IMG/VR virus record: IMGVR_UViG_3300008261_000022
Span: 1 to 56,983 of that record
Source: a virus
Strand: one strand, 5' to 3'
Length of the DNA stretch: 56,983 nt
A program made the position numbers and the translations under genes. This document shows, in pieces, positions 1-47,610 of the stretch. The first letter of the stretch is position 1; each line of letters opens with the position of its first letter. The notes under the pieces are model-generated. The model did no database searches, had not been told where the DNA came from, and was given only the letters and a program-made list of their open reading frames with translations.

Positions 1-62
1 GTCCTCCAACGCTGCGAGTCGTAAAGGCTCAAGGTCTTCTGTTGTCCAGAAATCCTTTGCCA
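1..62. repeat. Repeat shared with 56790-56851 (window ends)
   Basis: Bases 1-62 are identical to 56790-56851 and in the same orientation. Beyond base 62 the two copies differ at many positions but remain alignable to the window edge, so this is the conserved 3' part of two paralogous genes rather than an identical terminal repeat. The window begins exactly where identity begins. Confidence 0.85.
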
Positions 63-213
63 GCATAATTTTCAAGTGCTCTTTGTTGCGGGACAAGCAA
101 TCTGCCCAGTCTTCGTCTGTCATCTTCTCAGGCTGTCCTGCGTTGATGACGGCTACGCTGTCGAGGGCAGCAGAGTAGTGCTGGGCGATTTGTTCTGCGG
201 TGATTTCATTCAT
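1..213 (-). CDS. Small fibre-associated protein, copy 1 (3' end cut by window edge)
   Basis: A 71-codon open frame starts MNEITAEQIAQHYSAALDSV and is still open at base 1. Its ATG overlaps the stop of the preceding S74 fibre gene (ATGA), so the two are translationally coupled. A second, diverged copy lies at the right edge of the window, directly upstream of another S74 fibre; there the frame ends Glu-Asp-Lys-stop, so this copy probably lacks only one or two codons. It is acidic and mostly helical in appearance, with the conserved core TDEDWAD, HLKIMLAKDFWTTEDLEPL. Genes of this size after fibres often encode fibre assembly or attachment factors; that role is inferred from position only. Confidence 0.7.
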   Translation of the reverse strand, partial: MNEITAEQIAQHYSAALDSVAVINAGQPEKMTDEDWADCLSRNKEHLKIMLAKDFWTTEDLEPLRLAALED

Positions 214-1373
214 GCTGATGCTCCATTGATTTGGGCTTTGAGGTTGTCAACCTCTGCTTTGAGTTCTTGGATGGACTTGACAAGAATTGCAACCATGTTG
301 CTGTAACCAATTTCGCTTGGCGTGTCATTGCCTTCATCATCTTTCCAATATTCAACATACTCTGTCATACCTAAATCATGGAAATCTTCAGCAATAAAAC
401 CAGCCCGTTGTTTTTGGTTTGGCTCATCGTTATAGACAAAGTACTTTGGACGCATTTGCATCAATGCAGTCAAACCTCTGTCGTAGTCAACAATGTCGTG
501 CTTAAATCTGCGTGATGATGAGGTAACAAACAATTGACCTGCACTTGAAGACCAGTGCATATTTGCTGTGCCACCCACAGGCATTGCTGGAATGTATGCG
601 TATCCTGAGTTGTCAATATGCAGTCTAGGATTCCCATCCCCATCAGATAGCACAATTCGGTTGCTTGCTGTGCGAATGTCTAAGCCGCCTTGGTTGCCGT
701 TGTAGCTACCAATGATGGTATTTTTAGAGCCTGTAGTAATTGCATCTCCGCACCCTGCAACACCAACACGAGGAGCGCCTACAAATGTATTCTGCGTTCC
801 AGTTGTTAAAGAGTAACCAGCACCTTGTCCAAAAATGACGTTTCCTGCTCCTGTTGTAATGCTATACCCCGCCTGATAACCCACAGCAGTGTTGTTAGAT
901 GCTGTGGTGTTGGATAGGAGGGCTTGCTGACCAAGTGCAGTATTAAAGTTTCCGGTTGTCAAACCAGCAAGGGAGTTGCTGCCAATTGCGGTATTTGAGC
1001 CTCCAGCAGAAGAACCGCTGACACCAAGCATGGCGTTATAACCAAGAGCTGTGTTGTTATTGTTTGTTTGGTATTGGGCAGCGTTTGAACCAATTGCTGT
1101 GTTTTGTAAACCTGAACTTGTACTTGCCAAAGCACTAGCACCAATAGCAGTGTTGGTAGCCACAGCACCTGCGCCACGGCCTACGGTGAGTCCATCAATA
1201 GTCGCTGACCCTGTGCCAAACTGCGCTTTGTTTGACCCTCCAGCAGCAATCGCTACTGTATCTGCGGCGGGGTAGAAGATACCTGTGTTAGGGTCTGCAC
1301 CTTGTACGGCTGGCGTACCAGCAGAGCCGTCTACACCCGCTATGCCTGTTGTACCGTTAATCGTAATTGCCAT
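210..1373 (-). CDS. Tail fibre/tailspike with NTAIG repeats and C-terminal S74 chaperone domain
   Basis: 387 residues. The N-terminal third carries the module NTGIFYPAADTVAIAAGG, also present in the fibre at 55393-56784. The middle has about nine tandem NTAIG/NTALG/NTAVG repeats of 15-23 residues, as in trimeric adhesin head or fibre stalks. The C-terminus is a Peptidase S74 intramolecular chaperone: SSSRRFKHDI at the self-cleavage region, then RAGFIAEDFHDLG and a closing coiled coil (SIQELKAEVDNLKAQ). In the S74 family the domain trimerises the fibre and then cleaves itself off at the serine. It is the last complete gene of the left fibre block and is coupled to the small gene downstream. 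Its role in receptor binding is inferred. Confidence 0.85.
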   Translation of the reverse strand: MAITINGTTGIAGVDGSAGTPAVQGADPNTGIFYPAADTVAIAAGGSNKAQFGTGSATIDGLTVGRGAGAVATNTAIGASALASTSSGLQNTAIGSNAAQYQTNNNNTALGYNAMLGVSGSSAGGSNTAIGSNSLAGLTTGNFNTALGQQALLSNTTASNNTAVGYQAGYSITTGAGNVIFGQGAGYSLTTGTQNTFVGAPRVGVAGCGDAITTGSKNTIIGSYNGNQGGLDIRTASNRIVLSDGDGNPRLHIDNSGYAYIPAMPVGGTANMHWSSSAGQLFVTSSSRRFKHDIVDYDRGLTALMQMRPKYFVYNDEPNQKQRAGFIAEDFHDLGMTEYVEYWKDDEGNDTPSEIGYSNMVAILVKSIQELKAEVDNLKAQINGASA

Positions 1374-1382
1374 GTTGTCTCC

Positions 1383-2804
1383 TTAAACCACAGTCCAAAC
1401 CGAGCCACTCGCAACAGTTACCGTAATACCTGAGTTAACTGTTACAGGACCAGAAGATAAACCATTAAAACCAGTATCAACGGTATAGTTTGCTGCAATA
1501 GTATTTGCATTTACAAAGATACCGTTTAGAGCTACTGGCGCAGATGCTTGAAGTTCGCCCGTACTAGGCTTGTACAACAACTTGGCATTGCCGGTATTTA
1601 AACTACTAGCCGTACCGCTAGTGCTAGTTACAAATGTTGGGTATAGGTTAGTTGTGGTGCTTGTGTCGTTTGAGATGGTAATACTTGTGCCGCTGCTTGG
1701 CGTTATCCAAGAAAGAGCGCCGGTACCATCGGTTGATAAAACTTGACCGTTTGATCCATCTGCCGCGGGAAGTGTCCAAGTGACATTTGAAGTGATGTTT
1801 GCCGCACCTTGAAAGGCCACCCAATTCGATGAGTCGCCATCAGCAAACCGGACATCGCCTTGACCATTTAAAGTAAGGTTGCCGGCAATTGTCTGATCTT
1901 GAGTAAAGGTTTGGGCAATCCCTAGTCCGGCTACCGTGGTGCTTGTCGCAGGGAAGGTCATTACCGTGGAGTCTGTGCCGGACAAAGTCAGCGATGCGTT
2001 AACCGTCAGGGTCTTAGCATCCGTTCCCGCCAAAGTCAGGGTGGAGTTCGCGGTTAAGGTCTTACCATCCGCAACGGTTAGGGTAGATCCACTTGCCGGG
2101 GCGGTAATTGTTACCTTGTTATAAGTTCCACCCGTGATGTTTCCTGTGGTATCGGCAATCGTTACCGCTGAGTTTTGGATCAACTTCCCTGTTGTTCCAT
2201 CAAATCGAACCACCGCATCATCTGTTGCTGATGCAGGGCCAACCACATCACCATTGCCATTAGATGTCCAAGAAAGACCTCCTGAGCCATCGGTGGTTAG
2301 AACTTGGCCGCTATTACCATCATCGGATGGCATCGTAAGAGTGTAACTAGATGCCAAGGTTCCGGGGGCTTGCAGGGCAACATATTCGCCTCCGGTCGTG
2401 TCTTGAAGCCTTAAATCGCCTTGTGCGGCAATCTCAACCTGAGTAAACACCCCCGTATTTGCAGTTGTAGCCCCTACGGAACCGTTTAGTGGCCCGGCAA
2501 ATCCCGTGGCGGTGATAATCCCTGCGGAAATCGTTACCCCGGAGTTATCCTGAATGAGCTTCCCGGTAGTTCCGTTGAAGGTAGGTATCGCATTAGCAGT
2601 AGCAGAGGCGGGGCCAACGACATCGCCTAAAGCTCCAGAACCGGCCGCCAAGAGTTGCACCGCCCCAAGATTGTCCTCGTAATAGAGCTTTCCATCCGTA
2701 ATGTTGATGGCCAACTCGCCAGGGACAAGGTTTCCGGATGTCGGAGCGGCGGCTGCCGTAGTACTGTAATACAACGATATAGGGGTGAATCCCGCTTGTG
2801 CCAT
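1383..2804 (-). CDS. Tail fibre-like beta-repeat protein
   Basis: 473 residues, rich in Gly, Thr, Ser and Ala with almost no Lys or Cys, typical of elongated trimeric fibres. The N-terminus (AAAAPTSGNLVPGELAIN then TDGKLYYEDNLGAVQLL) is a module common at the start of phage fibre proteins and probably the virion-proximal end. Two internal repeats read DVVGPASAT...FDGTTGKLIQ, and a series of TLT(V/A) repeats follows. It ends without an S74 domain. It sits between the 998-residue fibre and the S74 fibre and is likely part of the same appendage, either as a stacked segment or as an alternative receptor-binding protein. Confidence 0.75.
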   Translation of the reverse strand: MAQAGFTPISLYYSTTAAAAPTSGNLVPGELAINITDGKLYYEDNLGAVQLLAAGSGALGDVVGPASATANAIPTFNGTTGKLIQDNSGVTISAGIITATGFAGPLNGSVGATTANTGVFTQVEIAAQGDLRLQDTTGGEYVALQAPGTLASSYTLTMPSDDGNSGQVLTTDGSGGLSWTSNGNGDVVGPASATDDAVVRFDGTTGKLIQNSAVTIADTTGNITGGTYNKVTITAPASGSTLTVADGKTLTANSTLTLAGTDAKTLTVNASLTLSGTDSTVMTFPATSTTVAGLGIAQTFTQDQTIAGNLTLNGQGDVRFADGDSSNWVAFQGAANITSNVTWTLPAADGSNGQVLSTDGTGALSWITPSSGTSITISNDTSTTTNLYPTFVTSTSGTASSLNTGNAKLLYKPSTGELQASAPVALNGIFVNANTIAANYTVDTGFNGLSSGPVTVNSGITVTVASGSVWTVV

Positions 2805-9700: not shown

Positions 9701-10390
9701 TTAACGCTCCTTCGCAACGAAGATGTAATCAACAGTCATGGTCTTGGCTACGGCTTCACCGTTCTGAATGGCAAATGTGACCGTAAGGTCTTCATCATCA
9801 GGCAGGTTGGTTGTTACAGAAGCACCACCAAGTACACCGTTTACAAAATACTGAATCTGCGACACACCATCGTAGTAGAAACCAAGGTTAATGAAAGTGT
9901 CATTAGCCATCGTTGCCACGGATGATGTTGTAGTCGCCGTGTTGTTTTTCTCAACCAACAGGCTCACCGAAGTGGAACCATCAGCTTTGATGAAAAACAC
10001 GCCATCCGTAACATCAAGCGGAGTCGTATCAGTAATTTGCAGTCCGACTACTAAATCAGATTGGGTTGCATCGCTGACCTTGAGGCGAGCCTCAAAGAAC
10101 AACTTTTTGCCCGAAGCAAAGCGATATGACTCGCCTTTCTTCTGCAACGAAACCAAATCATCGTCGGCAGCAGTATTGGTAATTAATAAAAGACCGCCAT
10201 CGCCATCTGTCAAAGCCTGAGTAGCGCCGGCATCCGTTTCAGTTACAGTCCAATCTCCGGCTGTGTAATAGTCGAAGTCTTCCATGTAAGTGTGAAACAG
10301 AGTCGGCGCTGGCATTGCCAAATCAGCGAATAGCGAATCCTCTCCCACATTGGTTACACCATTGGGGAAACGAGTTACTAGATTTGCCAT
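9701..10390 (-). CDS. Virion protein with concanavalin/LamG-like domain
   Basis: 229 residues. After a 35-residue lead, the rest reads as a lectin-like beta sandwich: KLFFEARLKVSDATQSDLVV, GLQITDTTPLDVTDGVFFI, then FINLGFYYDGVSQIQYFVNG and a C-terminal VDYIFVAKER. This is the pattern of LamG or concanavalin-type domains found in head-fibre or decoration proteins. It is immediately downstream of the major capsid protein, separated by a terminator-like hairpin, which supports a capsid surface role. Glycan binding is possible but not shown. Confidence 0.6.
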   Translation of the reverse strand: MANLVTRFPNGVTNVGEDSLFADLAMPAPTLFHTYMEDFDYYTAGDWTVTETDAGATQALTDGDGGLLLITNTAADDDLVSLQKKGESYRFASGKKLFFEARLKVSDATQSDLVVGLQITDTTPLDVTDGVFFIKADGSTSVSLLVEKNNTATTTSSVATMANDTFINLGFYYDGVSQIQYFVNGVLGGASVTTNLPDDEDLTVTFAIQNGEAVAKTMTVDYIFVAKER

Positions 10391-12541: not shown

Positions 12542-13501
12542 TTAGCTCCTATTCTGTCGTGCTTGTTCGGCGTATTTTTGAGCCATCCGGGCGCGTTTCT
12601 TTGGGTCATCCCAAAGTCCTGCATCTTTCATAGCTCTCACTTGTTCGGGACTTAAAGTAAAGGTGTTTCGGCTTGCGCCACCACCCGTTTCCCGCTCGCT
12701 TCCTGTCACAACGCTCCTAGGGCCTCTCTTTCTTGGAGTCTCGTCATTGGTCTCAGTATATGCACGACTTTCTTGCTCCTGCAACCGTGCATCTAATTCA
12801 TCCCAATAATCTTCTGAGGCGGGGTCCCAACCTTCCCGCACAAGTTGATTATCAATTCGCTTGGCAACCCGACTTCTTGGGTCTGTACCCTCAGGGTCAT
12901 ACCAAGCGTTCCTGTCCATCCAAGAGTTGGCCAATAATTTGATTTGGCCGGATTCTTGGTTGTTTTCGGCAGGAGGTTGCTGTTCAGCCTGAGCCTTGTA
13001 GACCCGCATCTTTTCTATGCGGTCTTTGGTCTCATACATAAGCTCTTGAGCCTTGATCATGGCTTGGCCATCGGAGTTTTCCGTGGCTTCGCGCATCTTG
13101 GCCTTGGCGTAGTTTAGGCGGGCTTCCTCATCCTGAATGGCTTTATCAAGTCGGGCAATGTCAGAGATGTGGGACTTCTTCTCAATTGCCGCCAACCTGG
13201 CCATCAGTTCTTGGTTCTGCCTAGCCAATAAAACCAACCGCTGGTCTTTCTCCTGGTTGGTCTTCTTGATGTAGTCCTTTTTGGCTCTACGGCGGGCACG
13301 GCGAGCCTCCCTTACCGCATCGGTGTCGTCTGGGTGATCCTCATCGGACTCGTCAGCCTCACCGCCTTGGGCTTTTTGCTCTTCGGCCTTTGGCTCTTCT
13401 TCGGCCTCTTCAGGCAGAAGTCCCTCAGGAACCTCAAAGGTCGCTGAGCCATCCTTTTCTTCAGATACCTTTATTTCTTGCTCTTTAATTTCTTCACTCA
13501 T
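12542..13501 (-). CDS. Probable capsid scaffolding protein
   Basis: 319 residues, highly charged. Residues 1-60 are very acidic (EGLLPEEAEEEPKAEEQ), residues 65-85 very basic (REARRARRRAKKDYIKK), residues 90-180 are predicted coiled coil (LVLLARQNQELMARLAAIEK, then LNYAKAKMREATEN), and the C-terminal part ends with a basic helix (KKRARMAQKYAEQARQNRS). Acidic start, coiled-coil middle and basic C-terminal helix match phage scaffolds, which bind capsid protein through the C-terminal helix. The position two genes upstream of the capsid protein fits. No protease domain is visible. Confidence 0.7.
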   Translation of the reverse strand: MSEEIKEQEIKVSEEKDGSATFEVPEGLLPEEAEEEPKAEEQKAQGGEADESDEDHPDDTDAVREARRARRRAKKDYIKKTNQEKDQRLVLLARQNQELMARLAAIEKKSHISDIARLDKAIQDEEARLNYAKAKMREATENSDGQAMIKAQELMYETKDRIEKMRVYKAQAEQQPPAENNQESGQIKLLANSWMDRNAWYDPEGTDPRSRVAKRIDNQLVREGWDPASEDYWDELDARLQEQESRAYTETNDETPRKRGPRSVVTGSERETGGGASRNTFTLSPEQVRAMKDAGLWDDPKKRARMAQKYAEQARQNRS

Positions 13502-16835: not shown

Positions 16836-19800
16836 TTAATTCATAGCGTGGGCAAGACCGCCCTTTTTACGCCCTGTTAGTTTTTTCTGCATCTCTCGGT
16901 ACTTCATGGCGCTATCTAACCAGCTTTGATCTAAGTCTTGGAGCGGGGCAAACAACTCCAATGACTTATGCGCTCCCTCCGGTGTTTTACCCATCAGGCG
17001 CTTAGCCTCAAAGTGGGTTGGGTACATTTGCTCAACAGGCAATTGATTCTCAAAACTTCCAAAGTAATCCCCGCCCAAATCGAGCGGGTAGGTTGAATGG
17101 CCTGATTTTTCAAAGATAGTGGCTTCAGGATCAAGGCGGGCGATGGTGTAGCCCGATGCGCCACGCTCAACATCCAAGAGCTCAGGATCGGTCACGGCCA
17201 ATCGAGTGGCCGCCACATCTGGGAACCCTCTCTTTTGGAATCCGGCCTTGGCCATAGCCTTTACAAACGCATCCCGTTGGCCACCAGGTCCTGTGATTAG
17301 TTTGTCGCGCAACTCCGGGTCTTCAAGCCCTGGGAAATTGGGAGCCTTGGGCTTGCCACCTTGACCCTTGACCGCTTTGACCGCGGCGTTAAACGCCTCA
17401 ATGTCTTTCTTGCTGAAGGCCGATATGTCCATCTGATTGAGCAACGCTTCGGTCATCATGGTGTTGAAGTCCACCGACAGGGGACTCATGGCCGTATACA
17501 CCCCGTAGATTGGCTGGCCGGACTCCCTTGCCATTTTGATCCGCTTGGCAAGCATAGATAGCACCCCTTGGCCGGAAGCCCATGCAGAGCCGGGATGGAG
17601 CCTCATAAAGTCCGGGCCACCCTCCAAGATCACATTCATGGGGGTACCTTCGATTTCCTGAATGATCCTTCCCGCTGCGGCTCTGTCTCCGGCAAACGGT
17701 ATGGCTATGCCGTTTTGTATATCTTCAGGGGTAATGATTTTCCTTGGGAGGAGTTGAACCGATGGATCATCAACGACCTTCGATTTGTATTCCCCAATCG
17801 GCTTGGCTAATCTAGTCTCTGAGATGTCATGCCAATAGCCAGCGGCTTCGGCCTCAGCCTTGCTCATCCGCTTACTAGCCTTCTCTGCGGCCTTGGCAAT
17901 CTTGGCTATCCCGCCCTTGGCCATCCGCTCTTCATGCCAAGCCTTTAACTTCTCATCTTTGACTAGGCCACCCTTTTTGTAGGACTGCCCAATCTTCACA
18001 TCTGACTTTAAGTTGGCGGGCAGATCCATAACCCATATGCCGGTCTCAGCCTTGTTAGCCTCTTTCAAGGCTTTGTCTTCAGAGTAGCCCCCGCCCAATC
18101 TCTCATTGGTGTTGGGATCTCTCACCTCATACCACATGACTTCATCGCCAAAGCCATCTACATCACCGGTTGGCTCAGAGGTCACATCGTCATAACCGTA
18201 TCGTTGAACGGCCACGCCCTTACGCTGCGGCTTGACCCCGTACTTTTTATATTGCTTTTCCAAGAACTTGGGGTAGACATCATCGTAGTACTTCTTCATC
18301 CCCTCGCCGCCGATGTCTAAGCCTTGGCCGGAGATAACGCCCTTATCCATCTCCATAACCTTCTTGCCTACGGCTTTGCCAACAACATCGGTAATTGGCT
18401 TGCCTACCGCTCGATCAAAGTGTCTTTGGGTGGAGCTTGTGACCATGCCATCATCATCTACGCCAAGCACAATAGTGCCGCCGCCCTTGGTTTGAATACT
18501 TACCGTGCGCTTGCCATCACCCTTCTCAACGCCGATAGCATCTACCTTCCGGCTTAGGGCATAGCGGTTTGCCTGTTCTTTTCCGCCGACTATGGCCACG
18601 GCATCGTAGTCATTGTCTGAGGCGTACTTTACAGCCCGCTTTAGAGCAAGCTGGTACCAATCTTCTTTGAACGGAGCATCAGGTACGCCAAGTAACTTTT
18701 GGCTACCAATCCAATCATCGTATTCTTTGGTCAGGGCATTGATGGAATCTAGATTGCTTTCATCTGTTTCTGACCATCGGTTGCTGAAGTTTTTCAGCCA
18801 TTCAATTTGGTAAGGTGTCATTTCGGTGCTATGCAGAGCAATCAACTCATCTGCATCCCGCTTGGGCATTGGCCTATTTGCGCCGTACCCCTTGTCCCGA
18901 CCGGCTTGGTGCCAATCCGACTGCACCTCCTCAATGACTAAGGTTTTCTTACCATCGATGTCCCTATCCTGCATTCGGATGTGAGCTAGAACATTTGGCT
19001 CTTCCCAATGAGGTGACTTGTAATCTACTCCCGATGCGTTTTTCAATGTTACGGGTTGGGTCGGGAGCGATGGATCGATCTTGGCATCTTTAATTGCCTC
19101 CTCAATCGTATTTCCGGTTCCGCGAATATCGGTGCGGCCATCAACTACATACCATCCTTTGTTCACATCAAATGTCGTACCACCAAAAACTTGACTTTGA
19201 GGCAAGATTTCCCAATTCTTTGGGATATTCACAGTTATCTCAGAGCCCTGTTTGATGTTGGTTGGCAAGGTCAGTAAGAGTTCCCGATAGTTCTTCCCGC
19301 CCGGAAGGTTCAAGTCTTGAGAGTCAAACTTAGGGGGTGGGTTATCTAAGTACCGCTTTTTGGTTGTCTCAAACCAATCCAAGTCTTCTTGTGGTATGTC
19401 GTAAAAGCCTTTTGAGATCAATGTCTCAAGCTCATTCATCTTGTTGATCTCGGCCTCAGTCATGTTTTGGGCTCGGACAACCTCTTGAACTTGGATCTTG
19501 TTGTTGTTGATGTAGTCCACCACCTCATCTTTGGTGACCGCAGTCTTGGACTTGAGCCACTCCGTAAGCCCGATAGCCTCTAACTCATCCTTCTTAACCC
19601 CTGGTTGCTTAGTGATGTCGTTTAGGAAAGACTGCCCTGAGCCTGACTTACGCTGCAGATTGACTGCCGCCTTCTCAGTCGCTGAGTAAAAGCCCAGCTC
19701 ATCGGCAGGCACCTTGACCTTGCCTGATATGGCTTCGGCGGCTGATGGTGCGCCGGCAGGGGGAACGGTAGATCCACCCACGGGAAGGTTCCTTAGCGAC

Positions 19801-22800
19801 TCAGGGAAGGCCGAATCAATCTTCTTGCCCGCCCGTGCTACCGCCCCGGAAACTTGTCTGCCGATACCTGGGATGTAGGTAACTGGCCCCAACTCAGGCA
19901 GGAACGGTACATCAGGGATCTTGGATGTCTCAATGGCTTTTGAGACCGGGGCAAGAGTCTCTCCGACATTTGTCAGGTACTCAATGCCGGCCTCCGATTG
20001 GGGTAGGGGAGTGCCCTCCTCAAGTTCTTTGATCTTCTGCTCGCCGCCAAAAAGCCCAACGAAGGGCTTGGCTAGCTCTTGGCCTACGATTGATTGGATG
20101 GTGCGAGCGGTCTCATACCCACCCCTCAACTTGTCAGCAAAGGGCAGTTCAGATACCCGCTTAGACTTGGCCTGCGCCTCTTCTTCTCGGGCGCGGTTCT
20201 CGTCTTCCATCATTTGGCGTGCAACCACGCCTTCGGGTCCGGGCGACATGAACACGGGAACCCCGGCGGCCATCTGTTTGCGGATCTCATCCCTTGGGTC
20301 ACCACCGGCTTGCATCTTGACCGCCCCACCGCGGGCGAACTTCTGTTCCTTGAAGTCTTTGCAGGGTCGGCTGCGCTTTAACTGCCACCCCTTGGGCTGG
20401 GTAACTAGGCCGCCCTTCTTGTAAGGCTGGCCCTTGACTGCTGAATCCTTGAGTTTGGGGGTAAGCTCAATCACATAGACCGGTTCGGTTATGTCTCCGT
20501 AACCTTTATCTACCGATACTCCGCGGCCGGTTTTAGTCTCTGCCTCATAGAACTCCCCGCCCATCTTCTTGGCGTACTTCTCAGCGAACCTCTTGAGTTT
20601 GTTGTCGTAGAACGCCTTCATCCCCTCTTCGCGGGGGGCGACCACTCCTGTATCCTCTTTTTGCATCTTCGCCCAAGTCTTCTTGGCGATCCGGTCTTTC
20701 TGATCCTCAGATAGCCCACGGGTAGTTGCATCTACGATCCGGCGCAGTTCCTCCTCAGATGAGACTTTTTCATTGCGATTCTCATTGAGCAGACCTCTTG
20801 CTCGAGCCTCGGCCTCAAGATTGATCCGGCCTGCAATACCGCCCCGTTGCTCTGTGGCAGCAACCTTCCATTCATTCCCGCCTTCCATCTTCTGCCAAGC
20901 AATCTCTTGGGTTCCCCACCGCTTGATCTGAGCGGGGGAGGCTGAGAACCCTACGCGGTCATAGCCATTCTTTGCGGCGTAGGCAAGGATGCGCTTAACG
21001 CCCAGCTCATGCCAATTGTCTTTGTACGGGGCATCCGGTAACTGCTCTTCAAATTCTAAAAGTTTTTTACGAACACCCTCAAGTTTTGCTAACTGATCTT
21101 TCCACCTTTGGTTCAATACTTTTAGTTGTGGGTCATCTTTTACTTTATCGGTGATTTCATACCAACTCAGTTCTGCGCCCGTTTCTTCCTTTATCTTCTG
21201 TTTGAGTTCTTGCTTAATTTTTTCGTTGTAATCATCGTATTCTTCTTGAAACTTTCTAAATTTTTCTGTTTCGGCTCGCTCTTCCTGAACGACCTTTTCC
21301 CTCGCCTCAACATTTGCCTTATCAAAATAGCCGGCCTCATTGCCCCGCTGATGCCAATCAGACTGCATCTCATCCACATAGAGCATCGGCTTTCCATCGG
21401 TCGTGGTTCGATCCTGAACCCGCATATGGAGGAGGACATTGGGTTCGCTCCAATGTGACCCCTGAACATCAGTAAACTCATGATCTGGATAAGAACGGGG
21501 GTTTACAATAAGTAACAACTCCCGGTAGTTTTGCCCGTTGTCTAATTGGTAGTCTGCAAAGCGGGTTTCCCCCTCGCCCATGAGTCCTTGGAGCATGGCA
21601 TCTTCTCTAGCCGCCCCCTGAGCCGACTCAAAGTCGCGATAATCCCCACGGCCTACCGGTATGTCATCAGGATCTTTAAGGTAATACCCCATGTCATCAC
21701 TACCGACGATGGTATATCCAGCAGAGTTTCTCCACTCATATTCGGGGCTTTCGTAATACTCTGACTCAGCTTGGTTGTAAGCTCTTTCCTTGATTCGCTC
21801 ATCAACCTCTTCATCAATCCGGCTTAGGATATTGGGGTCTTCAAGATCTTCCGGAGAATACTCATCCATGATTTCTTCACGGATTTTTTCCCTTGACCCT
21901 GGGAAATACTCATCAAACTCAAGGACATAGTCATCAGAACGGTCGCTGATATAACTGTCGTTTTCAATAACCCTTCCATCCCCGAAATCAAAGTCATTAT
22001 CATTGAAGTCGCCCTGCCTGTACTCAACCTCCGCAAACTTTATCTTTTTGTTGTCGATGTAGTCCCGAATCTCATCTCGGGTGACCGACTTCTTGCCTTG
22101 TAGGAAATCATTAAGATCGGCGTATTCCAGCTCATCATTGGACACCCCGGCCTTCTTTAGCTCAGAGAGGAAAGCCTCGCCAGACCCCTGCTTTCTCTGC
22201 ATATTGAGGATGGCCTTCTCCGCGGGGGAGTACAGACCTACCTGATTGGCCGGAGCCTTGACTGTCTCAGGCTTGGCCTTGACTTCCTTGGGCGTAATGA
22301 CCTGTTCAATTGATGGGCCAACGGCTTCCATCGACAGCCCGACCGGCAGCGGGGGCAGCTCCTTAACCTTATCCAAGGCACCGCTCATCATGCTTTGCAC
22401 CTGGGGCTTGACCCCGCGGACACCAGCCAATTGGGCTAACTCCGGCATGATCGGGGGGATCTTGTACTTAGTCTCAATCTCTTCTAAGAACTTGCCCACA
22501 TCCTGAACATAGGGCATCGCCTCAGCGGATATGTCGCCCGGAGCCATGAAACGCTCCACGGCCTCTTCCCCCGCCCGGATACCCTCTTGACTACCGAACT
22601 TCCCTGAGCTCAAGGTTCCGTAAAGGCCGACAAACGGGGAGACCATGCCCTTGGCTAGGCTCTTGCCGATAACGCCGGCCGCCTCAGCCCGCGGATCTGT
22701 CCTCGACTCCCGGTCACCGGAGAGCGCCTCAAGCATGGCATCGATCTCGCCCCCGGACTGCATCCGAACCTCGCCCCCGGCCTTCATGCCTTCAGGGTTC

Positions 22801-23768: not shown

Positions 23769-23836
23769 TGATGCACCGATAAAGTGATAAGCGAGATTGT
23801 CCCGCCTTCATCAATTGCTTGCCACTCAGGATGCAT
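23765..23836 (-). CDS. Possible 23-codon linking ORF between terminase and polyvalent gene
   Basis: MHPEWQAIDEGGTISLITLSVHQ, written in two parts: MHPEWQAIDEGG then TISLITLSVHQ. Its ATG lies 11 bases before the end of the terminase gene and its TGA overlaps the ATG of the 2310-residue gene. It would bridge the 57-base gap and let ribosomes pass from one gene to the next. It may be a real micropeptide, a coupling device or chance. Confidence 0.3.
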   Translation of the reverse strand: MHPEWQAIDEGGTISLITLSVHQ

Positions 23837-25247
23837 ATGGATTCTCCCTCTTCTTCCATGCGCCTGAGTCGATGTAGTCTTCCTCGTCATAGTCTTCCTG
23901 AGGCGGCGGGTCGATCTCAAGCCAGCCGGCATCCCGCAGGAACCGCAGCGCCTGGGTGCAGGCATCCACAAAGTCATCATGAGTGGACTCAGGGAAGGAG
24001 CATATCTGTGAGACAAAAGGCTCAGCCCAATCCCGGACATAGCCTTCCTTGACCGTGCTCTCCGGTATCCACACCCTCCCTCGAGCAATGATGTTGGACA
24101 CGATATTGAGGCGCTGAACCTTGTCCGCATTCCCTGGGTTATATGCCCTGACCGGCAGGTGGGCCCGCTGCAAGTCCTGGATCAGGCTAATGCCAGCCGA
24201 CTTGTCCTCAACCAAGATCAGGTCAACCCGCTTCTTTTCCCTGCCCTCACCGAAGATGGTGTCGTACTCCTCAATGACCTTTGGCCGCAGGTCGGGGTAT
24301 TGCAGGCGGTCTTGCCAGCAGTCAATCACCATGACCGACATCGGGCCATCCACGGGCTTGAACACCCCCCAAGTAATGCAGGCGGTTGGGTCGTTGATGG
24401 TCTTTTCCGTATAGGCGCAGTCATAGGACTGAACGATGTACTCAAATTTGGGAAAGGCTTTCTGAGCCGGCCAGAGCTTGAACATCTCCCGCTTGACGAT
24501 CCCGGACTCCTCCGGGTCGATGATCTCAGCGTAGATCTCCTGCCTTCCCAGCTTCGTTCCCTCATATTGGAGGATCTGCTTTTGGAAGGAGGGAGCCAGA
24601 TTGGCGAGATTGTCATAGGTTGAGGCGGTAGTCAGCACCACATCATTGCCCTCCCGCCCTACTAGATCCACGATCAGGTCTTTAGGCTTTGGGGTTGTCG
24701 TACAGATAATCCGGGTCTTCTTGCCTAGTCGCACCCCGAACATGATCTGATCCCAGGCCTCATCGAGGTAGTCCCAAGCGGCCAACTCATCCAGCCATGC
24801 CCCGTGGAACTGTGGCCCCCGGAACCGCTCTGGCTCCGAAGCTGGGATGCCTTTGATCAGGGAGCCGTTAATCAATTTAAGCTCATGGAAGGCGCGGTTG
24901 TAATCTGCCACAAGTGAACTGGGTATAACTGATAAAAGCCCTGAGTCCCCTTCAAAACAAGTTGCTCTGACATCGGAGGAGGTTGGTGCGCCCACCAGCC
25001 AGCGAGTGCCTTCCTCCTGCCATGCCCACCACCCCACTTGCTCCGCAGCCGTCCTGGTCTTGCCGGCACCGCGGCCGGCGAGCATAAGCCATATCGTCCA
25101 CCAATCCCCAGCCGGGATAACCTGGTGCCTATGCGCCTTAGATACCCAGTTAGCCCTCCAAGCCCAGGCGACCTGATCCTCAGGCTTGAGTTGAGAGAAT
25201 TTGGCCTGAGTGTCCGGGTCTTTAAGGATCTCAAGAACTTCATCCAT
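23826..25247 (-). CDS. terL: Terminase large subunit
   Basis: 473 residues; packages DNA through the portal and cuts concatemers. N-terminal ATPase: Walker A GRGAGKT at 58-64 after LMLA, Walker B HGAWLDELAAW with D153 and E154, coupling motif ICTTTPKP at about 181-188. C-terminal RNase H-like nuclease: YDCAYTEKT (D276), LILVEDKSAG (E347, D348) and THDDFVDA (D424/D425 region). Length and order match Terminase_6/6C types. The start ATG at 25247 lies inside the end of the 59-residue gene upstream. The small subunit precedes it by one gene. Confidence 0.93.
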   Translation of the reverse strand: MDEVLEILKDPDTQAKFSQLKPEDQVAWAWRANWVSKAHRHQVIPAGDWWTIWLMLAGRGAGKTRTAAEQVGWWAWQEEGTRWLVGAPTSSDVRATCFEGDSGLLSVIPSSLVADYNRAFHELKLINGSLIKGIPASEPERFRGPQFHGAWLDELAAWDYLDEAWDQIMFGVRLGKKTRIICTTTPKPKDLIVDLVGREGNDVVLTTASTYDNLANLAPSFQKQILQYEGTKLGRQEIYAEIIDPEESGIVKREMFKLWPAQKAFPKFEYIVQSYDCAYTEKTINDPTACITWGVFKPVDGPMSVMVIDCWQDRLQYPDLRPKVIEEYDTIFGEGREKKRVDLILVEDKSAGISLIQDLQRAHLPVRAYNPGNADKVQRLNIVSNIIARGRVWIPESTVKEGYVRDWAEPFVSQICSFPESTHDDFVDACTQALRFLRDAGWLEIDPPPQEDYDEEDYIDSGAWKKRENPYAS

Positions 25248-37542: not shown

Positions 37543-38883
37543 TTACGGAGCAATCGTTTCGCTAGTCTGACCTAGCGGAGCCTTGCTCTGATTTTCTCTC
37601 ATGTACTGAATTAGTGGCGCGGTGATGGCCAACGGAATCCCTACGGGAGCGGTTGGGGGGAAGGCTGACATAACCGCACCGGTTGCCCCAAGACCGGACA
37701 GACCCATCTTCATGTAGTCTGGCTTTTCTTTTCCGGCCTCGCTTGCCATTGAACCCAACTCACTTCCAGCTTGGGCAAACGCCAAGGGTGGCGCACCGTA
37801 CTTCATAACCGTGCCGCCTATGGTTCTCATCCTTGAGCCTGGTTCAATCATATCCCTGAATAATTTTGTAACCTCATCAAGGCCACTACGGGGAGGTGGG
37901 GGAACGGGCTTGGTCGCGGGAGCACTTCTTGGGTATAGCACCCCAGATGGGGTTGCAGTCATCCCAGGTGATTGAGCAAATACTTGGGATGCACTCTGAG
38001 GAACCACTCCTGACCTTTGTAAGGCTCCGATGTTTTGAGCGGCTTCTTTGGCTCGCGCAGCCTGTTGGGCGGTCTCAACATTAAATCCCGCCATGCGAGC
38101 TCTTCCGGTCGCCCCAGAATCAACATCGGTTGTGCCCTGAAGGATTCGATTGGCTTGGGTAGCCTCTGAAGCTAGGTTTGGTGCCATCGACCCACCAAGA
38201 GGAGGACTTGCGGATAAACGGCCTTCCTCAGCCGCTTGGCCTAAGAGCCTCGCCGCTCTACCGGCTACCGCTGGAGCAGCACGAAGAGCAGTTAAGGCAG
38301 TACCCGCACCGGCTCCGGCAAGCTCACCCCGACCGCGGGCAGACTTCTCCCGAACCGCATCAATTTGCTTTTGAAATTCAACAGAATCTTGGCTTTGAGT
38401 AGGCTCAAATTCTGAGCTCACAGGTTTTTCAGGCTGTGCGGGCGCAGCGGTTGCTGTCGGGAATGCCCCGTAGCCCTTCAAATCTTTTAAATAATTGACT
38501 GTTATGTCAGGGAGGGTTGTTCCTTTGGATGTAAAAAACGGGTGGTTGATCCCTGCGTTATATCCAGCGGCGGCCAATCGAGCATCGCCCTCGCTCATAT
38601 CCAAGGACTTCTTCAGATACTTTATCCCTGCCTCAATGTTCTTTTCGGGGTCACGGATGTCTTCCGCTGAGAACCCAACCTCTTTGGCGGTATCGGGCTT
38701 GATCTGCATGATCCCAATCTCGCCAGCTCCGCCTGCCTGAACCTTAGGGTTGAGACCGCTTTCCTTGAAGGCCACGGACACGGCAAGTTCTGGAGACACC
38801 CCCATCTGCTTAGCCTTAGCGGCAATCCGTTGGGCGTAGGATTTTTGAGATTCGTTGAGGTTTTCGTAAAAGCTCAGATTCAT
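37543..38883 (-). CDS. Internal virion protein with N-terminal lytic transglycosylase (SLT) domain
   Basis: 446 residues. Residues 10-130 are an SLT domain: VAFKESGLNPKVQAGGAGE with catalytic E41, IGIMQIKPDTAKEVGF, DPEKNIEAGIKYLKK and RLAAAGYNAGINHPF. The rest is Ala/Pro/Gly-rich, with two hydrophobic stretches near the end (GLSGLGATGAVMSAFPPTAP, VGIPLAITAPLIQYM). In podoviruses such proteins are ejected with the DNA and open the peptidoglycan. It is the last gene of the late operon, after two other ejection-type genes. Confidence 0.83.
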   Translation of the reverse strand: MNLSFYENLNESQKSYAQRIAAKAKQMGVSPELAVSVAFKESGLNPKVQAGGAGEIGIMQIKPDTAKEVGFSAEDIRDPEKNIEAGIKYLKKSLDMSEGDARLAAAGYNAGINHPFFTSKGTTLPDITVNYLKDLKGYGAFPTATAAPAQPEKPVSSEFEPTQSQDSVEFQKQIDAVREKSARGRGELAGAGAGTALTALRAAPAVAGRAARLLGQAAEEGRLSASPPLGGSMAPNLASEATQANRILQGTTDVDSGATGRARMAGFNVETAQQAARAKEAAQNIGALQRSGVVPQSASQVFAQSPGMTATPSGVLYPRSAPATKPVPPPPRSGLDEVTKLFRDMIEPGSRMRTIGGTVMKYGAPPLAFAQAGSELGSMASEAGKEKPDYMKMGLSGLGATGAVMSAFPPTAPVGIPLAITAPLIQYMRENQSKAPLGQTSETIAP

Positions 38884-38892
38884 AATCTACCC

Positions 38893-40443
38893 CTAAATTG
38901 GCAGGCGGCCGGCGGCACCCTTGTTATCACGACCCTTTGGTGCTGATGGCCGTTCAGGAGGGGTTCCACCCAATCGATTTTGGATAATTCCGCCCAATTT
39001 TTCTTCGTACCTCTGAACCATGTTGGCGTAATCATCGCCTGACTTGAAGTCATCGATGCTGCCCTTGTAAGTCCGGACAGCCTTAGCCACCTCGCGGTCA
39101 AACTCAGCGCGGGCACGAAGGAGGTCAAGTTTTGCCCGGATGGTATCCGGATTGTCGGTTCGGGCAATTGCCGCAGATGCAAATAATGACCGCTCAAAGT
39201 CAGATACCGCGCCTTGACCCTGTTGTAGCCGGCTCATCTGCAACTGAACCTGAGCCATCAAGGACAGGCCATACTGCGCTTGGTTAATCATGTTTTGATC
39301 CAAGCCGGCATTAGTCAGAACATCGCGGATTGCAGGCAAGGTAATTGAGAATCCGGGCGTTCCAACGCCACCCTCAATCAATTTCATAAAATTCTCAAAT
39401 ACGCCTGGGCGCTCAAAGACACCGAAGATTAATGCCGCATTTGGACTAGCGGCAATCTGATCAAGCTGGCGATAGACTCCAAGGCGTGATGGAGCATCTG
39501 ACCCAGCCTTGATTGTTTCTGCCCTATCGGCTTCCTGAGCCTTGGTTCTTTGCTGAGCTCTTTCTGTTGCTCCGGCCTTTTCAGCTTCGGTTTCAGCAAC
39601 ACTTGAAATCTTTCCTGGAGCTTTGCTTTCAGGCGCTGTCTCTCCCGGTTTCGGAGGAGCCTTTGGCCCTTCCACGGCTCTCTTCGCAACTTCGTAATAT
39701 CTTGAATCGCCGTTGGCCGCATACATATCAAGAAGGGCGGCAGTCCTAGCATCGACCTTATAAACACCATCGTAGCCAAAGATTTGGCGCTCAACCAATT
39801 CGCCTTTCGGGAACGGATAAAACATACCAGAGGACAGGTCTTGAACCCCGCCCTCTTTAACTTGGTACCGATCCTGCTCTAGTTTGGTGGCATCCTTAAT
39901 TGCGGTCGTTGGCGCAATACTTGGATCAAGACGAGCCATACCAAGGTATTGGCGTCCGGTCATAAAGTTGGGGTTAGGCGGAGCTACAGGGATTCCTTGG
40001 ACTCCCTCAAAACCCTTCGGAGCAACAGAGAGTGGCCCCGCGGGTTGTTGCCTACTCAATGGCCCAGTTGCCGGAGCGCCGGAGGTTTCTGGCCCCATCA
40101 ACTTTGCAAACTCTCGATCCCGCTGCCTTAAACGCTCAATTTCAATACCTCGACCGGCAAGACCAAGCCTTGCCTCAGCAATATCCCGCTCTTCTTTTTC
40201 CTCTGCAACTTGAGCCTCGCGGATATTTTTAGCGGCAAACCCCAAGGACTCTCCAAACCCGCCGGTTTGAGTGGGAGCCAAAAAGCCTTGAGCCAAGGCC
40301 AACATGGAAGGATCAAAAAACCTGTTTTGGCGTGCGTTTAGAGCCTGCTCCATCCGATTAAGAGCCGCCTGATACTCTTGATTTGCCATAAAGGCTTCCG
40401 GGTCGTTCCCCGGTAAAAATCCAACTGTAGGTGCTTTTGCCAT
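38893..40443 (-). CDS. Probable internal/ejection virion protein
   Basis: 516 residues. Helical N-terminus (NQEYQAALNRMEQALNARQN, then SMLALAQGFLAPTQTGGFGE and a coiled coil at 70-110), a Pro-rich middle, and a helical C-terminal half with a low-charge segment QYGLSLMAQVQLQMSRLQQG. It shares no recognised enzyme motif. Its position between the transglycosylase protein and another helical Gln/Ala-rich protein, in the place where P22-like phages keep their ejection protein set, supports an internal virion role. Family not named. Confidence 0.6.
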   Translation of the reverse strand: MAKAPTVGFLPGNDPEAFMANQEYQAALNRMEQALNARQNRFFDPSMLALAQGFLAPTQTGGFGESLGFAAKNIREAQVAEEKEERDIAEARLGLAGRGIEIERLRQRDREFAKLMGPETSGAPATGPLSRQQPAGPLSVAPKGFEGVQGIPVAPPNPNFMTGRQYLGMARLDPSIAPTTAIKDATKLEQDRYQVKEGGVQDLSSGMFYPFPKGELVERQIFGYDGVYKVDARTAALLDMYAANGDSRYYEVAKRAVEGPKAPPKPGETAPESKAPGKISSVAETEAEKAGATERAQQRTKAQEADRAETIKAGSDAPSRLGVYRQLDQIAASPNAALIFGVFERPGVFENFMKLIEGGVGTPGFSITLPAIRDVLTNAGLDQNMINQAQYGLSLMAQVQLQMSRLQQGQGAVSDFERSLFASAAIARTDNPDTIRAKLDLLRARAEFDREVAKAVRTYKGSIDDFKSGDDYANMVQRYEEKLGGIIQNRLGGTPPERPSAPKGRDNKGAAGRLPI

Positions 40444-40445
40444 GA

Positions 40446-41543
40446 TTAGCCCTTACTTACATGGAATAATCCACCGCGTTTACCAGGCGGCTCTTCCTGA
40501 GAAGTTGGGACGCTGGTCGTTGATGGCCCGTAATATGGCCCAATATCCTCATCTGGGTCACCCGACTTGCCGTAAGAATCAGAACCCGTGCCAAAAAGCT
40601 TTTTATAAAAATCTGTTGATCCAATTGCGTCGGCACCTTTTGAAAATAAATCCGAAACGCCCTTGAGGAGGCTATCGCTTGCTATTGGCTTGCCTTGGGC
40701 ATCGTAAGTCACGCCACCTGGCCGGATAGCCCCAAGGGTTGATAGAACTCCAAGGATGTTTGCCAAGTCTGAGGTTTTATACAGGCCAGCCTTTGGCCCC
40801 ACAAAAGTCTCAGTTTGGGTGGTTGGCATTTGATAGCCACGCATTAGACCAGCGGCGGTTGTAGCGGTTTTCAGGGGGTAATCGAGCAGGCTCTGCTCAT
40901 AGGCTTGCTTCTCAGCCCCGGCCTTAGTCAACGCTCCAGCTCCGGTCAGACCTAATTCCTGTTCTTTTCCAGCAATTTGAGCCTGTGTTTGAGCGGCTTG
41001 GTTTTGTAGTTGAAGCTCTTCCATGGCCGCCTTCATGGCGTTTTGGTAGCCAGATGAGAGCGCCCCGTACTGTTGGCCCATCAAATTGCGTTGCATATCG
41101 CCCAAGGTTTGGCCTGTCGCAGCGGCATATCGCTGGCTGCCAAGGTTTCCAGACCCCACAAAGGCTCCCTTTAGGGAAGGTAGAACCGACCTTTGTATGT
41201 TCTGTTGCTGGAGCCTTGCCATCTCATCGACCACCTGCCTTTGGTAGGGGTCCATGAGGGCTTGTATCCGGTTGGGGTCAAACCCCGCGGCAGCGGTTGC
41301 TGCGGTTTGTCCGGCGGCGGTCAGCCCTGGCTGATAAGAGGTTGCCGCTCCTGGAACCATCCCGTAGCCCTGAGTCTGAAGGGCATCCATCGGGGCGACA
41401 CCTTGGCCAACAGGTCTTGCCATGGCGGTCTGACCCGCTTGGGAGAGGTCTTGGAGGTATTGGGTGTAGTAATCCGGGGCGACCTCCGCACGGGTGGTCG
41501 TTTGGGTAACATTTGGTAACGGATCGCCTTGGGTGATTGCCAT
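40446..41543 (-). CDS. Probable internal/ejection virion protein with C-terminal RGG tag
   Basis: 365 residues, rich in Ala, Gln and Gly. DYYTQYLQDLSQAGQTAMA and ALMDPYQRQVVDEMARLQQQ are typical of a protein type next to tail-hub genes in environmental podoviruses; residues 140-230 form a long amphipathic helix (YQNAMKAAMEELQLQNQAAQ). It ends GKRGGLFHVSKG, a C-terminal tag like those in the 1543-residue and 2310-residue proteins. Likely packaged in the head and delivered with DNA; inferred from composition and neighbours. Confidence 0.6.
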   Translation of the reverse strand: MAITQGDPLPNVTQTTTRAEVAPDYYTQYLQDLSQAGQTAMARPVGQGVAPMDALQTQGYGMVPGAATSYQPGLTAAGQTAATAAAGFDPNRIQALMDPYQRQVVDEMARLQQQNIQRSVLPSLKGAFVGSGNLGSQRYAAATGQTLGDMQRNLMGQQYGALSSGYQNAMKAAMEELQLQNQAAQTQAQIAGKEQELGLTGAGALTKAGAEKQAYEQSLLDYPLKTATTAAGLMRGYQMPTTQTETFVGPKAGLYKTSDLANILGVLSTLGAIRPGGVTYDAQGKPIASDSLLKGVSDLFSKGADAIGSTDFYKKLFGTGSDSYGKSGDPDEDIGPYYGPSTTSVPTSQEEPPGKRGGLFHVSKG

Positions 41544-41545
41544 TT

Positions 41546-44500
41546 CTATCTCCTAGCCTTCTGAGCAGACTTTTTGCCCTTCAAATAATCTAGCGGGTTT
41601 GCCTTAGCCTCCGGGGGTAAGTCCTTTGGCTTTGCCGACCGGTGGTATGCCCTGATCGAATGCATCATGTCGTACAACTTATCGGAGCCAGCTTTGGTTG
41701 AGCCGTTACCTAAAGCGGCCACCACATCGGCGGGGATCACAAACTCCCCATCAGCCAACATCGCTGGAATGTCATCAGATTGGCCATCCCCAGGGCCGGT
41801 CACCGCATCACCCTGCCGAAAGTCTACCCTCGCCTTACCGGAGTGCGCCACCATAGGCAAGCCCCCGCCGGCATATCTGCCGTAACGGGTTTGGCCGCCA
41901 CCGGCCATCAGAGGTGTGGCCAACCCACCTCTTTTTGCGATCATCGGCTCCAAGCCGTAGAACGATGTGCCCGCCGTTCCGAATGGGCTAAACAACTGAT
42001 CTATGTCAGTAGATTGCCCATAGGTAAAGTAATTCGGCATGAAAGGATCTCCTTGTTGGGTATTTTCCCGTATTTCGGGGGTTGTCTGCGACTGAGTCTG
42101 CGTAAACGGTTGGTCACCATAGTCTGAGGACTGAACCTCGGCCATGAACTCTTGTAGTGGCCCCTTGAACTCCTCTTGCTTAGTGGTGCTTGTGATAAAG
42201 GGCTTTTTAAACTTTGCGGAGTCATCGGCAGGGGTGACTTGAGGGGCTTGGCCGATCAAAGGAAGCATGGCGGCTTGTTGGGCGGCCTGTCTCTCACCCT
42301 GAGTCTTTTGTAGGGCGATGCTTTGTTGTAAGGCGTTATATCGAGCCTTATCTATGTTTTTAGCAACATCTTCTAAAGTTGCTTCTTCCGGTCTTTGGCC
42401 AACAAACTCAGCCACATCTTCGGGCGTTGGTTGGTCTAGACCTAAAGTTCTGTACTTTGCAACAACCTCTTCTGTGGTCGTTAGAAGTGGATCGACATAG
42501 GATTCAAGTTGTGACTTGACCTGTTGCTGTTGGATGTCTTTGCCTTGGCGAACATATTCAGCAATTTCTTGAGAGTTCGGGACATAACCAAACTCCTTAT
42601 AAAACGCCTCAACTTCCGCTTGGGTTACTTGCCGTGGATCAACATACTCCCCGATTGAGGTCTTGACCTCTGCCTCAGGTTTGGACAGAACAAATTGCGC
42701 CAATTCGTTTGGCTGGGGCGTATACCCATAGGTATTAAAGAACTCTTGCGCCTCTGATTGGAGGGTAGCCAATGGATCAATCTGCGCCCGATAGGCGGCG
42801 GTTGCTTCTGCCTCATTAGCTTGGCGAGCCAACGCCAACGCCTGCTGATCGGTAAGGGTGTAACCCTCTGCCGCCGCCGCGGCCTTAATCTCTGCCACAT
42901 CAAATACATTTGGATCGGCAATTGATATGGCCTGTTCTTTAGCCTGGGTTTCAATGATTTGGCCAACAATCTTTTGAACATCAGCATCTGTCGGGGCGGT
43001 ATATCCTTGCTCAGCCAAGAACGCACGGGCTTCTGACTCTAGTGTTGCAAGCGGGTCTGAGTAAGTTTGGAAGGACTCTAAAGTAGGTTGTTCGTCTTTT
43101 GCACCCGTAAATCTTGCGTAGTCCTCAGGCTTGAGGGTATACCCCTCTGTGGCAGCCTGTTGCTCAAGTTCTTGTCTTGTAGTGTAGGCGGCATCATATT
43201 TCTGTAGATTTGAGGCAACATCTGCGGCACCTCCGATAGGGCCACCCGCTACCCCCTCTAAAGTACCGGATGCAACAACACCGCGCCATGTCGGGACTGC
43301 AAAACCTTCACGCTGAAGAGCGATGTTTTCCGCTAACTTTTCTTGGCCGCCCTGAGCTGCCTCAGGAATGCCTTCTTTCAATCCGCCTACAACAAACTGC
43401 CCCGCAACATTCTTGGCGGCAACACCCTCAGCAATATTTGATGCTATTTCTTTTGTAAGGATTTTTTCCGCTGGTCCCATAGCGGCCGCGGTTCCCAATA
43501 TTGCGCCGGCAATGATGGAATCAAGATTTTTGCCGTTATAAGCCTGAGCCTGCTGAGCCTTAATTTCTGCCGTACCGGGATCAACGCCCGAGGCAATTAA
43601 CGCTTTCTTGGTTTCATCGTAAATAGTGCCCTTGATAATTCCCGCTCCAGACACCGCTCCTGTCCCGTACTGAGCGATGCGAGCTACGACCATAGGAGCG
43701 CCTAAAACCGATGTAGCCATGGCTGCGGCCACATTTGGAACGATAGTTCCCGCCGCCTCTACGATTACACCTGGATAGGCAACTAACGCTTCAACACCGG
43801 CAATTACTTGATCCAAAACACCTTTGTCTTTTGCATCATTAAGAATTTTGGCTTGTAAGGCTTTGTCATTTAACGCCTCAGCACTATAGAGCGATTGGAT
43901 GTAACCACGGGCGGTTCCCAAAGCCTTTGATACTGAGTTGTCTGCACCGAAGGCATCGGTAATGCCTTTGATACCATTGACAATTCCTGACATTAAATCA
44001 AGGGTGGTGCTATTTGGCCTTGCGGATGCAGTAAACCTTGCAAGAGCCTCTTTTTCTGCCGGAGTCAGTTTATTTTGGAAGTTATCGTAGGCTTCCTTGA
44101 TGTAGTTATAGACCGTGTCTCCCAAGTCAATTTTCTTCTTGTCATCAGAGGCAAAGTCTTGGTACATCTCAAACCAACCCATAGGGTCTTGGTCGCGCAT
44201 CTCATCAAGCGTGTTTCCAACCCCACGGGTGTCACCTACACCCTCAATCGTAATCCGGAGTTTTTTGTCTCCGGTCACAGGGTCCCAAAAGTATCCATCG
44301 GTTTTTTGATCTGCGGAGGCGTTGGATAGCCATGCATATGCCCCGTTAGAAGTTGGCATTAGAACGGCTTGGTTGCCAAAAATCTCTTCTGAGGTGGCTA
44401 ACTTATATCCTTCTGGCGGCGTGTAAGTCGTTGAGGATGGCCGGTTGTCGGCGTTGTAGGTATCTTTGACCAAATCCTCATTGACTGTTGAGGATGAGGA

Positions 44501-46177: not shown

Positions 46178-46655
46178 TTGGTTCCTTTCCCCGATTTTCC
46201 ATTTCTCTGACTAAAGAACCAATTTCAATAATAAGTTTATATTTTCCTTTTGATGGGTCATCATCGTTTGGCTCTAACATCATGTATGAGCCATACCCTT
46301 TTTTAATGACATCGTAAATAGTCTTATCGTTTAAATAAGTGTACGCAATCTCCACACCTCTTGTTTTATTGGCAGAAATTAAAAACTTTGAAACAATAGA
46401 AAAAAACTCTTCTAATCCATTTGCCGTGATTGTGTGAAATTTAATTACTTGAAAGTCATCTTCAGGGACAAAAAGAATAAGCGTGTTTCCCATTCTAAAG
46501 ACTAACGATCCAGTATCTATCTGAACCTTAAAAGATGCCCTAGCAACCTCTAGAGGTATGCCTTTGTCTTTATAGTTCTTTTCCCAATCGGTGCGTAGAA
46601 TGTCATCTACGCTCATCGATCCAAACGCTTTACGATATGACTTCTCTTCCGTCAT
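46164..46655 (-). CDS. Hypothetical protein in the tail region
   Basis: 163 residues from MTEEKSYRKAFGSMSVDDIL; this ATG overlaps the upstream stop (ATGA), so the longer frame is not used. The middle is beta-rich (FKVQIDTGSLVFRMGNTLIL, FVPEDDFQVIKFHTITANGL) with helices after (FFSIVSKFLISANKTRG) and ends with YGSYMMLEPNDDD. The strand-helix alternation loosely recalls a GNAT-like fold but no acetyl-CoA motif is visible. Placed between the di-iron protein and the giant internal protein; its function is unknown. Confidence 0.6.
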   Translation of the reverse strand: MTEEKSYRKAFGSMSVDDILRTDWEKNYKDKGIPLEVARASFKVQIDTGSLVFRMGNTLILFVPEDDFQVIKFHTITANGLEEFFSIVSKFLISANKTRGVEIAYTYLNDKTIYDVIKKGYGSYMMLEPNDDDPSKGKYKLIIEIGSLVREMENRGKEPNGLG

Positions 46656-47344
46656 GCCGCCACCCATTTAGAGTCATCGTGATTATTGGGATGAAAATTC
46701 TTTTGAAAGATTTCTGTGTAAGGAATCCAAGACTTGAAAATCAACTCCAAGCCAAGACCCACAAACGACTTTATTGTTGACAGTTTCCACAAAACGCCAT
46801 CTTCTTTGCATTTTGTAATCGTGTACTTGAGAACCGAATTTAGAACATAGAACATATTCAAGGCGGCTACTTTTTTGAGGGTATAGCGGGAATTGCCAAA
46901 ATGAATCCACAGATCCATGGCTAGACTTTTATGCTCCAACTCTTCCCTACAATGCCACTTGTACAGATTTAATTCTTTACTTGCTTGGTTCTCATACCGC
47001 TTTAAAAAGGTTCTAGCACCGCAGGCGGCCATATGCTCAATCGACACCATAGTGGCCAACCACATTTGATGGTTTGGCCGGCGAAAGACCAACCGAGCCT
47101 TTCTCAACTCCCGTGCCTCCATGTTGCCTAGGTCATGAGCCTTGTTATGTGCCTGATGGGCGTTGGCATGGGCTAACTCTTGTTTACAGAACTGGTCGAT
47201 CCGGACTTTTAAGTCCTCATCGCTAACTTTTTCTTTATAGTGCGAGGCAACATAAACAAATGCTTTTTCCCAAGCCGGGAACAGGATGCTCCATCCATCA
47301 TAGAAGTGCGTTCTTACAGGATTGTTTTCGCACCAATACTTCAT
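46652..47344 (-). CDS. Ferritin-like di-iron protein, metal-dependent hydrolase type (PF10118-like)
   Basis: 230 residues from MKYWCENNPVRTHFYDGWSI; the ATG overlaps the upstream stop. The metal motif set is complete: LFPAWEKAFVYVA with E26, FCKQELAHANAHQAHN with E56, H59 and H63, MVSIEHMAACGA with E103/H104, and WHCREELEHKSLAMDLW with H131, E134, E135, E137, H138. This is the pattern of the 'predicted metal-dependent hydrolase' family PF10118, helical proteins with a di-metal site and no firm substrate. Its place inside the late tail operon is unusual. It could be a packaged enzyme or an auxiliary metabolic gene; which is unknown. Confidence 0.72.
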   Translation of the reverse strand: MKYWCENNPVRTHFYDGWSILFPAWEKAFVYVASHYKEKVSDEDLKVRIDQFCKQELAHANAHQAHNKAHDLGNMEARELRKARLVFRRPNHQMWLATMVSIEHMAACGARTFLKRYENQASKELNLYKWHCREELEHKSLAMDLWIHFGNSRYTLKKVAALNMFYVLNSVLKYTITKCKEDGVLWKLSTIKSFVGLGLELIFKSWIPYTEIFQKNFHPNNHDDSKWVAA

Positions 47345-47610
47345 GAGACCGATCCTGGGTTCACCGAAGCCAACAAAGCCGCCGCCCAATCAAACCAATT
47401 GTCATAGTTGTCGGTCGATGGAATTGCTTCATTAGTAAAGATATCGATAGCCTTTAGGCCGTTGCCCCACAACTTCCAATCGGTGAGCTGGGTGGGTATT
47501 TCCAATTGTTGAGCCGTATATTGCTCGCACATCAAGGCCGCCCAAGATTCAAAGGTATGGAACCGTGGGTCATAGATTAGGGGTTGCCCCGCTTGGGCAG
47601 AGATCGTCAT
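47341..47610 (-). CDS. Small tail-region protein
   Basis: 89 residues, acidic, Trp-rich: YDPRFHTFESWAALMCEQYT, LEIPTQLTDWKLWGNGLKAI, STDNYDNWFDWAAALLASVN. It overlaps both the tail-hub gene and the di-iron gene by 4 bases. Compact conserved-looking protein that follows gp10-like genes in related environmental phages; probably structural. Family not named. Confidence 0.6.
   Translation of the reverse strand: MTISAQAGQPLIYDPRFHTFESWAALMCEQYTAQQLEIPTQLTDWKLWGNGLKAIDIFTNEAIPSTDNYDNWFDWAAALLASVNPGSVS

Follow-up and report, generated by a model that had tools for sequence, protein, structure and literature searches.

The DNA analysed here, referred to as the window, is the entire IMG/VR virus record IMGVR_UViG_3300008261_000022, with a length of 56,983 bp. 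It is very probably an essentially complete phage genome whose map forms a circle of about 56,789 bp, the two ends of the contig overlapping within a small gene beside the tail fibre genes, with a second version of this gene, variant B, represented in the data. What looks like a pair of paralogues at opposite ends is most likely a single gene met at either end of a circle that was not closed. Overall the case is an ordinary one, of some use as a point of method and as a modest lead for biology.

Overlap of the two contig ends

The features found at the two ends of the window are:

1-62, no strand: terminal overlap, identical to 56790-56851
1-213, minus strand: small fibre-associated gene, copy A, 71 codons; the complete gene is found in a sibling contig (locus L084)
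210-1373, minus strand: tail fibre with a C-terminal S74 chaperone domain, upstream of the small gene (PF13884, E=6.2e-9; PHROG tail fibre matches)
1383-2804, minus strand: fibre-like protein upstream of the S74 fibre; its N-terminus matches the N-terminus of a fibre in MW202545
54278-55393, minus strand: tail fibre protein after the S74 fibre (phrog_4492, tail fibre, E=1.6e-57)
55393-56784, minus strand: tail fibre with a C-terminal S74 chaperone domain, directly downstream of the small gene (PF13884, E=4.2e-11; PHROG tail fibre matches)
56784-56981, minus strand: small gene, copy B, 5' end cut at the contig end; its stop codon and the start codon of the following fibre gene share bases (TAATG)
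56790-56851, no strand: partner of the terminal overlap, 3' end of the small gene, identical to 1-62
56852-56983, minus strand: variant B, an alternative 5' part of the small gene that differs from copy A; strain allele or chimeric contig tip

When the window is compared with itself, bases 1-62 match 56790-56851 without a single mismatch, and the ungapped match then goes on to the end of the window with 81% identity over 194 nt. The sequence-only reading had described this exact identity followed by divergence, and had also placed an S74 fibre beside both copies; both observations hold. The two fibres pass the curated cut-off for Peptidase_S74 (PF13884), scoring 36.5 and 43.4 bits vs 22. Copy A has the fibre at 210-1373 on its upstream side, and copy B has the one at 55393-56784 on its downstream side. 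Since the runner-up among the exact direct repeats in the window is 25 nt long (99/56888) and again falls in the small gene, in the same register, the 62-bp match is not due to chance. Its length is capped at the left by the contig end, and 62 nt is thus no biological repeat boundary.

Copies A and B are one and the same gene on the minus strand. Copy A (213 to 1) is missing only its final two codons, AAA TAA, which are supplied at 56784-56789, while copy B (56981 to 56784) is missing approximately its first seven. If the ends are butted together, the reading frame of the small gene is broken, as had been stated earlier, and this had been taken to mean that at least some sequence is missing. 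That part does not stand, since the ends overlap rather than abut: joined by their common 62 bp they give one intact gene of 219 nt (72 codons and a stop) and bring the map to 56,789 bp.

The true order would then be the fibre at 210-1373, one small gene and the fibre at 55393-56784 on a circular map. Two versions of the 5' part of the small gene, A, which is joined to the fibre of the window, and B, would share the last 62 bp and have left the circle unclosed. The contig would start within the common piece on the A side and stop in version B after 132 bases. In a de Bruijn graph, an exact overlap that stops at a branch point results where two different predecessors lead into one successor. 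The test for direct terminal repeats asks for an exact repeat of 20 bp or more at the two extremes of the contig, which is not found here; the right-hand copy lies 132 bases inside the end.

The junction in sibling contigs and in a circular relative

Contig 3300008267_002057 (loci L084 and L272, record G002) comes from another IMG/VR assembly and is, apart from gaps, near-identical to the window along its length. Its order is S74 fibre, small gene A in full, TAATG and then the beginning of the fibre gene at 55393-56784. It thereby crosses the left end of the window, and the fibre found at the right end of the window comes next. The 219-nt gene obtained by overlapping the ends is present in it letter for letter. 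Past TAATG the contig covers no more than about 46 nt of the next fibre, and taken alone it would be compatible with a second unit having identical first ~114 nt. A further contig of the same assembly, 3300008267_000240 (G001), begins at window position 56851, which is the exact point where A and B diverge, and runs for 33.8 kb through the fibre and onward; no second exit branch is found over this distance. Where G002 ends and G001 starts, the two contigs have 114 bases in common without a mismatch. We infer that 62 and 114 are both the word length minus one, corresponding to words of 63 and 115.

The sibling contigs lack nine clean blocks of 50-213 bp that are present in the window, several of them breaking a reading frame. 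This looks like an assembly fault of the sibling contigs. The blocks are, in window coordinates:

20742-20851, 19263-19336, 17933-18035, 12960-13150, 10145-10358
1774-1824, 669-777, 55189-55274, 23790-23961

A relative, Siphoviridae sp. ctpbd312 (MW202545, 57,457 bp), has been deposited as circular and complete. The proteins encoded at 37543-52782 in the window correspond to 16.9-28.7 kb of MW202545, and those encoded at 210-25991 to 29.5-51.7 kb, with the order kept. Its single small gene is found at 29.28-29.47 kb and encodes a protein that is 72% identical over residues 5-68. According to this synteny, the two ends of the window lie side by side in a closed relative, with a single small gene separating them. 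The two genomes are alike in their syntenic structural block, in their similar size and in having one small gene directly after an S74-type fibre. They differ in that MW202545 has no S74 fibre pair after the small gene, and its proteins are only partly similar to those of the window (89% for the major capsid protein, 68% for TerL). The long fibre of MW202545 (29523-32006) is a single gene corresponding to two adjacent fibre genes of the window (210-2804). Independent sequence over the junction (L084/G002 of the sibling assembly) and the gene order across it in a closed relative (MW202545) are therefore both at hand, and they support the circular map that the sequence-only reading had proposed.

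Alternative readings of the ends and of variant B

The sequence-only reading further held that the genome contains a tandem array of units, each consisting of an S74 fibre and a small gene, of which at least one unit would be missing between the window ends because the assembly broke in the repeat. The two differing copies at the ends and the frame broken by blunt joining would fit such an array, but the sibling contig links small gene A straight to the fibre at the other end of the window, and G001, which starts at the branch point, runs for 33.8 kb without the second exit branch that an array is expected to produce. There is one small gene between the fibres in the sibling, one in MW202545 and one in 79 of the 80 IMG/VR records that carry the gene, and none of the 158 loci scanned has two copies. 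An array in the sense of at least two complete units in one molecule is consequently not what is found for this phage, judging from the sibling junction and the single copy in relatives, and the claim was not borne out. Four other loci (L018, L033, L044, and L343) likewise have a fibre followed by one small gene and an S74 fibre. The one exception among the records is G058, from another phage, which has a genuine second unit of S74 fibre and small gene, so that duplication of the unit can happen. For the window, a residual array would require a further unit that is identical to the sibling junction over its first ~114 bases, together with the lack of an exit branch in the sibling assembly; both this special case and an array in general are considered very improbable.

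Even less credible is the possibility that the genome is linear and that the contig ends are its physical termini, carrying a short terminal repeat. An exact direct repeat does begin at the left end, but its right-hand partner lies 132 bases inside the other end, both ends fall within a coding frame, and MW202545 has been deposited as circular. A physical terminus at the left end is refuted by the sibling contig, which reads across it. The number of contig ends at the small gene shows a weak excess only (five ends within 100 bp, vs approximately 1.6 expected), and this was not relied on.

Under the preferred reading, with one small gene on a circle, the origin of variant B has to be considered separately. 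It is likely to be the allele of a co-existing strain in which everything upstream of the common 3' end, probably including a different fibre, would have been exchanged. The competing explanation, which is likewise compatible with a single copy and is a variant of the preferred reading, is that B is a chimeric tip where the assembler walked from the common 3' end into the small gene of an unrelated phage. The family is widespread, with at least 562 confirmed stretches in IMG/VR contigs, which makes short common words plausible, and B is found in no other record: an exact 28-mer of B has no match in IMG/VR, and in a protein search of IMG/VR the best match was copy A in the sibling. On the other hand, a 24-mer inside the common 3' end is found in IMG/VR in the two sibling contigs only, and the full EPLRLAALEDK C-terminus encoded by the common 62 nt is absent from the other family members examined. 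The common 3' end is thus nearly private to this phage, so that sharing with an unrelated phage is unlikely and a co-existing strain is favoured; in addition, the sibling assembly breaks at the same base. A chimeric tip is accordingly regarded as the less probable origin, at perhaps one chance in a few. Among other strains searched for the fibre at 55393-56784, the sibling alone is close, and in the rest identity does not exceed 55% even in the best segment.

The small-gene family and apparent exchange of fibre genes

The family set comprises the small-gene loci L003-L082 and L272-L349, and window 1-213. The family is common, with at least 562 matching stretches in IMG/VR, and in 89 of 112 distinct small genes an S74 ORF ends no more than 80 bp upstream. 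Proteins of this helical family, about 70 amino acids long, are also encoded directly after S74 tail fibres in phage isolates of Roseobacter, Methylophilales, and Pelagibacter. The small protein of the window has no match among Pfam and PDB sequences, and in PHROGs it has a weak match only, to phrog_21274 (function unknown, E=0.0035). D6PG87, an unnamed predicted viral protein, is 62% identical to it and is probably a member of the family. The protein is predicted to form three helices (pLDDT 87). A fold search against PDB gave no match with E≤0.001, the best Z of 7.4 being within the helical-bundle background, and absence from such a list excludes nothing.

When loci were grouped by their downstream flank (at least 85% identity over 500 bp), and differences between fibres were counted beyond the last ~60 bp of the fibre gene, all five groups with different haplotypes contained members with differing upstream fibres. 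The converse is also seen, as the upstream side of L029 matches that of L033 (90%), while its downstream side matches that of L038 (96%). Such a mosaic is, as read from these sequences, a signature of exchange with its boundary at the small gene. No match to the small gene was found in 12 long relatives identified by their terminase, some of which are fragments, and the gene therefore probably travels with the fibre cassette and not with the backbone of the genome.

It is conceivable, although rather doubtful, that the small gene, which is short, conserved and widely distributed and lies between a variable fibre and the downstream genes, acts as a recombination hinge, where fibres are swapped by homologous recombination, sometimes with HNH or GIY-YIG homing endonucleases in or beside the gene. 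If so, variant B would be one such exchange caught in the population. Between A and B the identity declines from the 3' to the 5' end of the gene, but position-resolved comparison of relatives revealed no uniform trend or breakpoint of this kind, and the hinge accordingly stays a hypothesis. In L035 (4510-5790) an HNH_3 endonuclease is encoded directly upstream of the small gene and a NUMOD3/weak GIY-YIG endonuclease directly downstream. In the second unit of G058 (L185, 3800-4583) an HNH_3/AP2 endonuclease ORF interrupts the small gene after codon 16, and a re-started small gene follows it.

The window serves as a warning that a complete circular phage genome may be filed as linear when one of its ends stops in a strain variant, in which case one gene may be mistaken for a pair of paralogues at the two ends of the contig. 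Such genomes would be recovered by a check that tolerates divergent sequence after an overlap of the ends. What is left for biology is modest, namely a small gene without a name that is very common beside S74 fibres, at a site where fibre cassettes appear to be exchanged.

Repeats of k-mer length at contig ends originating from circular templates have been described by the authors of CheckV (PMC8116208). The window resembles these direct terminal repeats in having a short exact repeat from the overlapping ends of a circular assembly graph. It differs in that the right-hand copy is followed by 132 bases of alternative sequence, and a repeat test applied at the two extreme ends would thus be expected to miss the overlap.

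That fibre genes vary among close relatives while their neighbours stay similar is known from metaviromic islands and host-recognition modules (PMC3909814; PMC10579305). The same combination of varying fibre genes and similar neighbouring genes is found here. Unlike in the islands, which are defined by under-recruitment of reads, the switch point lies around a small gene beside the fibre and is seen in contigs.

The tail-fibre chaperones T4 gp38, Mu Tfa, and V22 gp27 are encoded directly downstream of their fibre (PMC7289586; PMC10579305). They are proteins of about 20 kDa, while the small protein has only ~72 amino acids, is all-helical in the predicted model and shows no similarity to a known chaperone family in the Pfam and PDB sequence searches; moreover, the fibre preceding the small gene already has an S74 chaperone domain of its own. 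Like these chaperones, however, the small protein of the window is encoded immediately after a tail fibre gene, and by analogy with gp38, Tfa, and gp27 this position suggests that it may have a role in fibre assembly.
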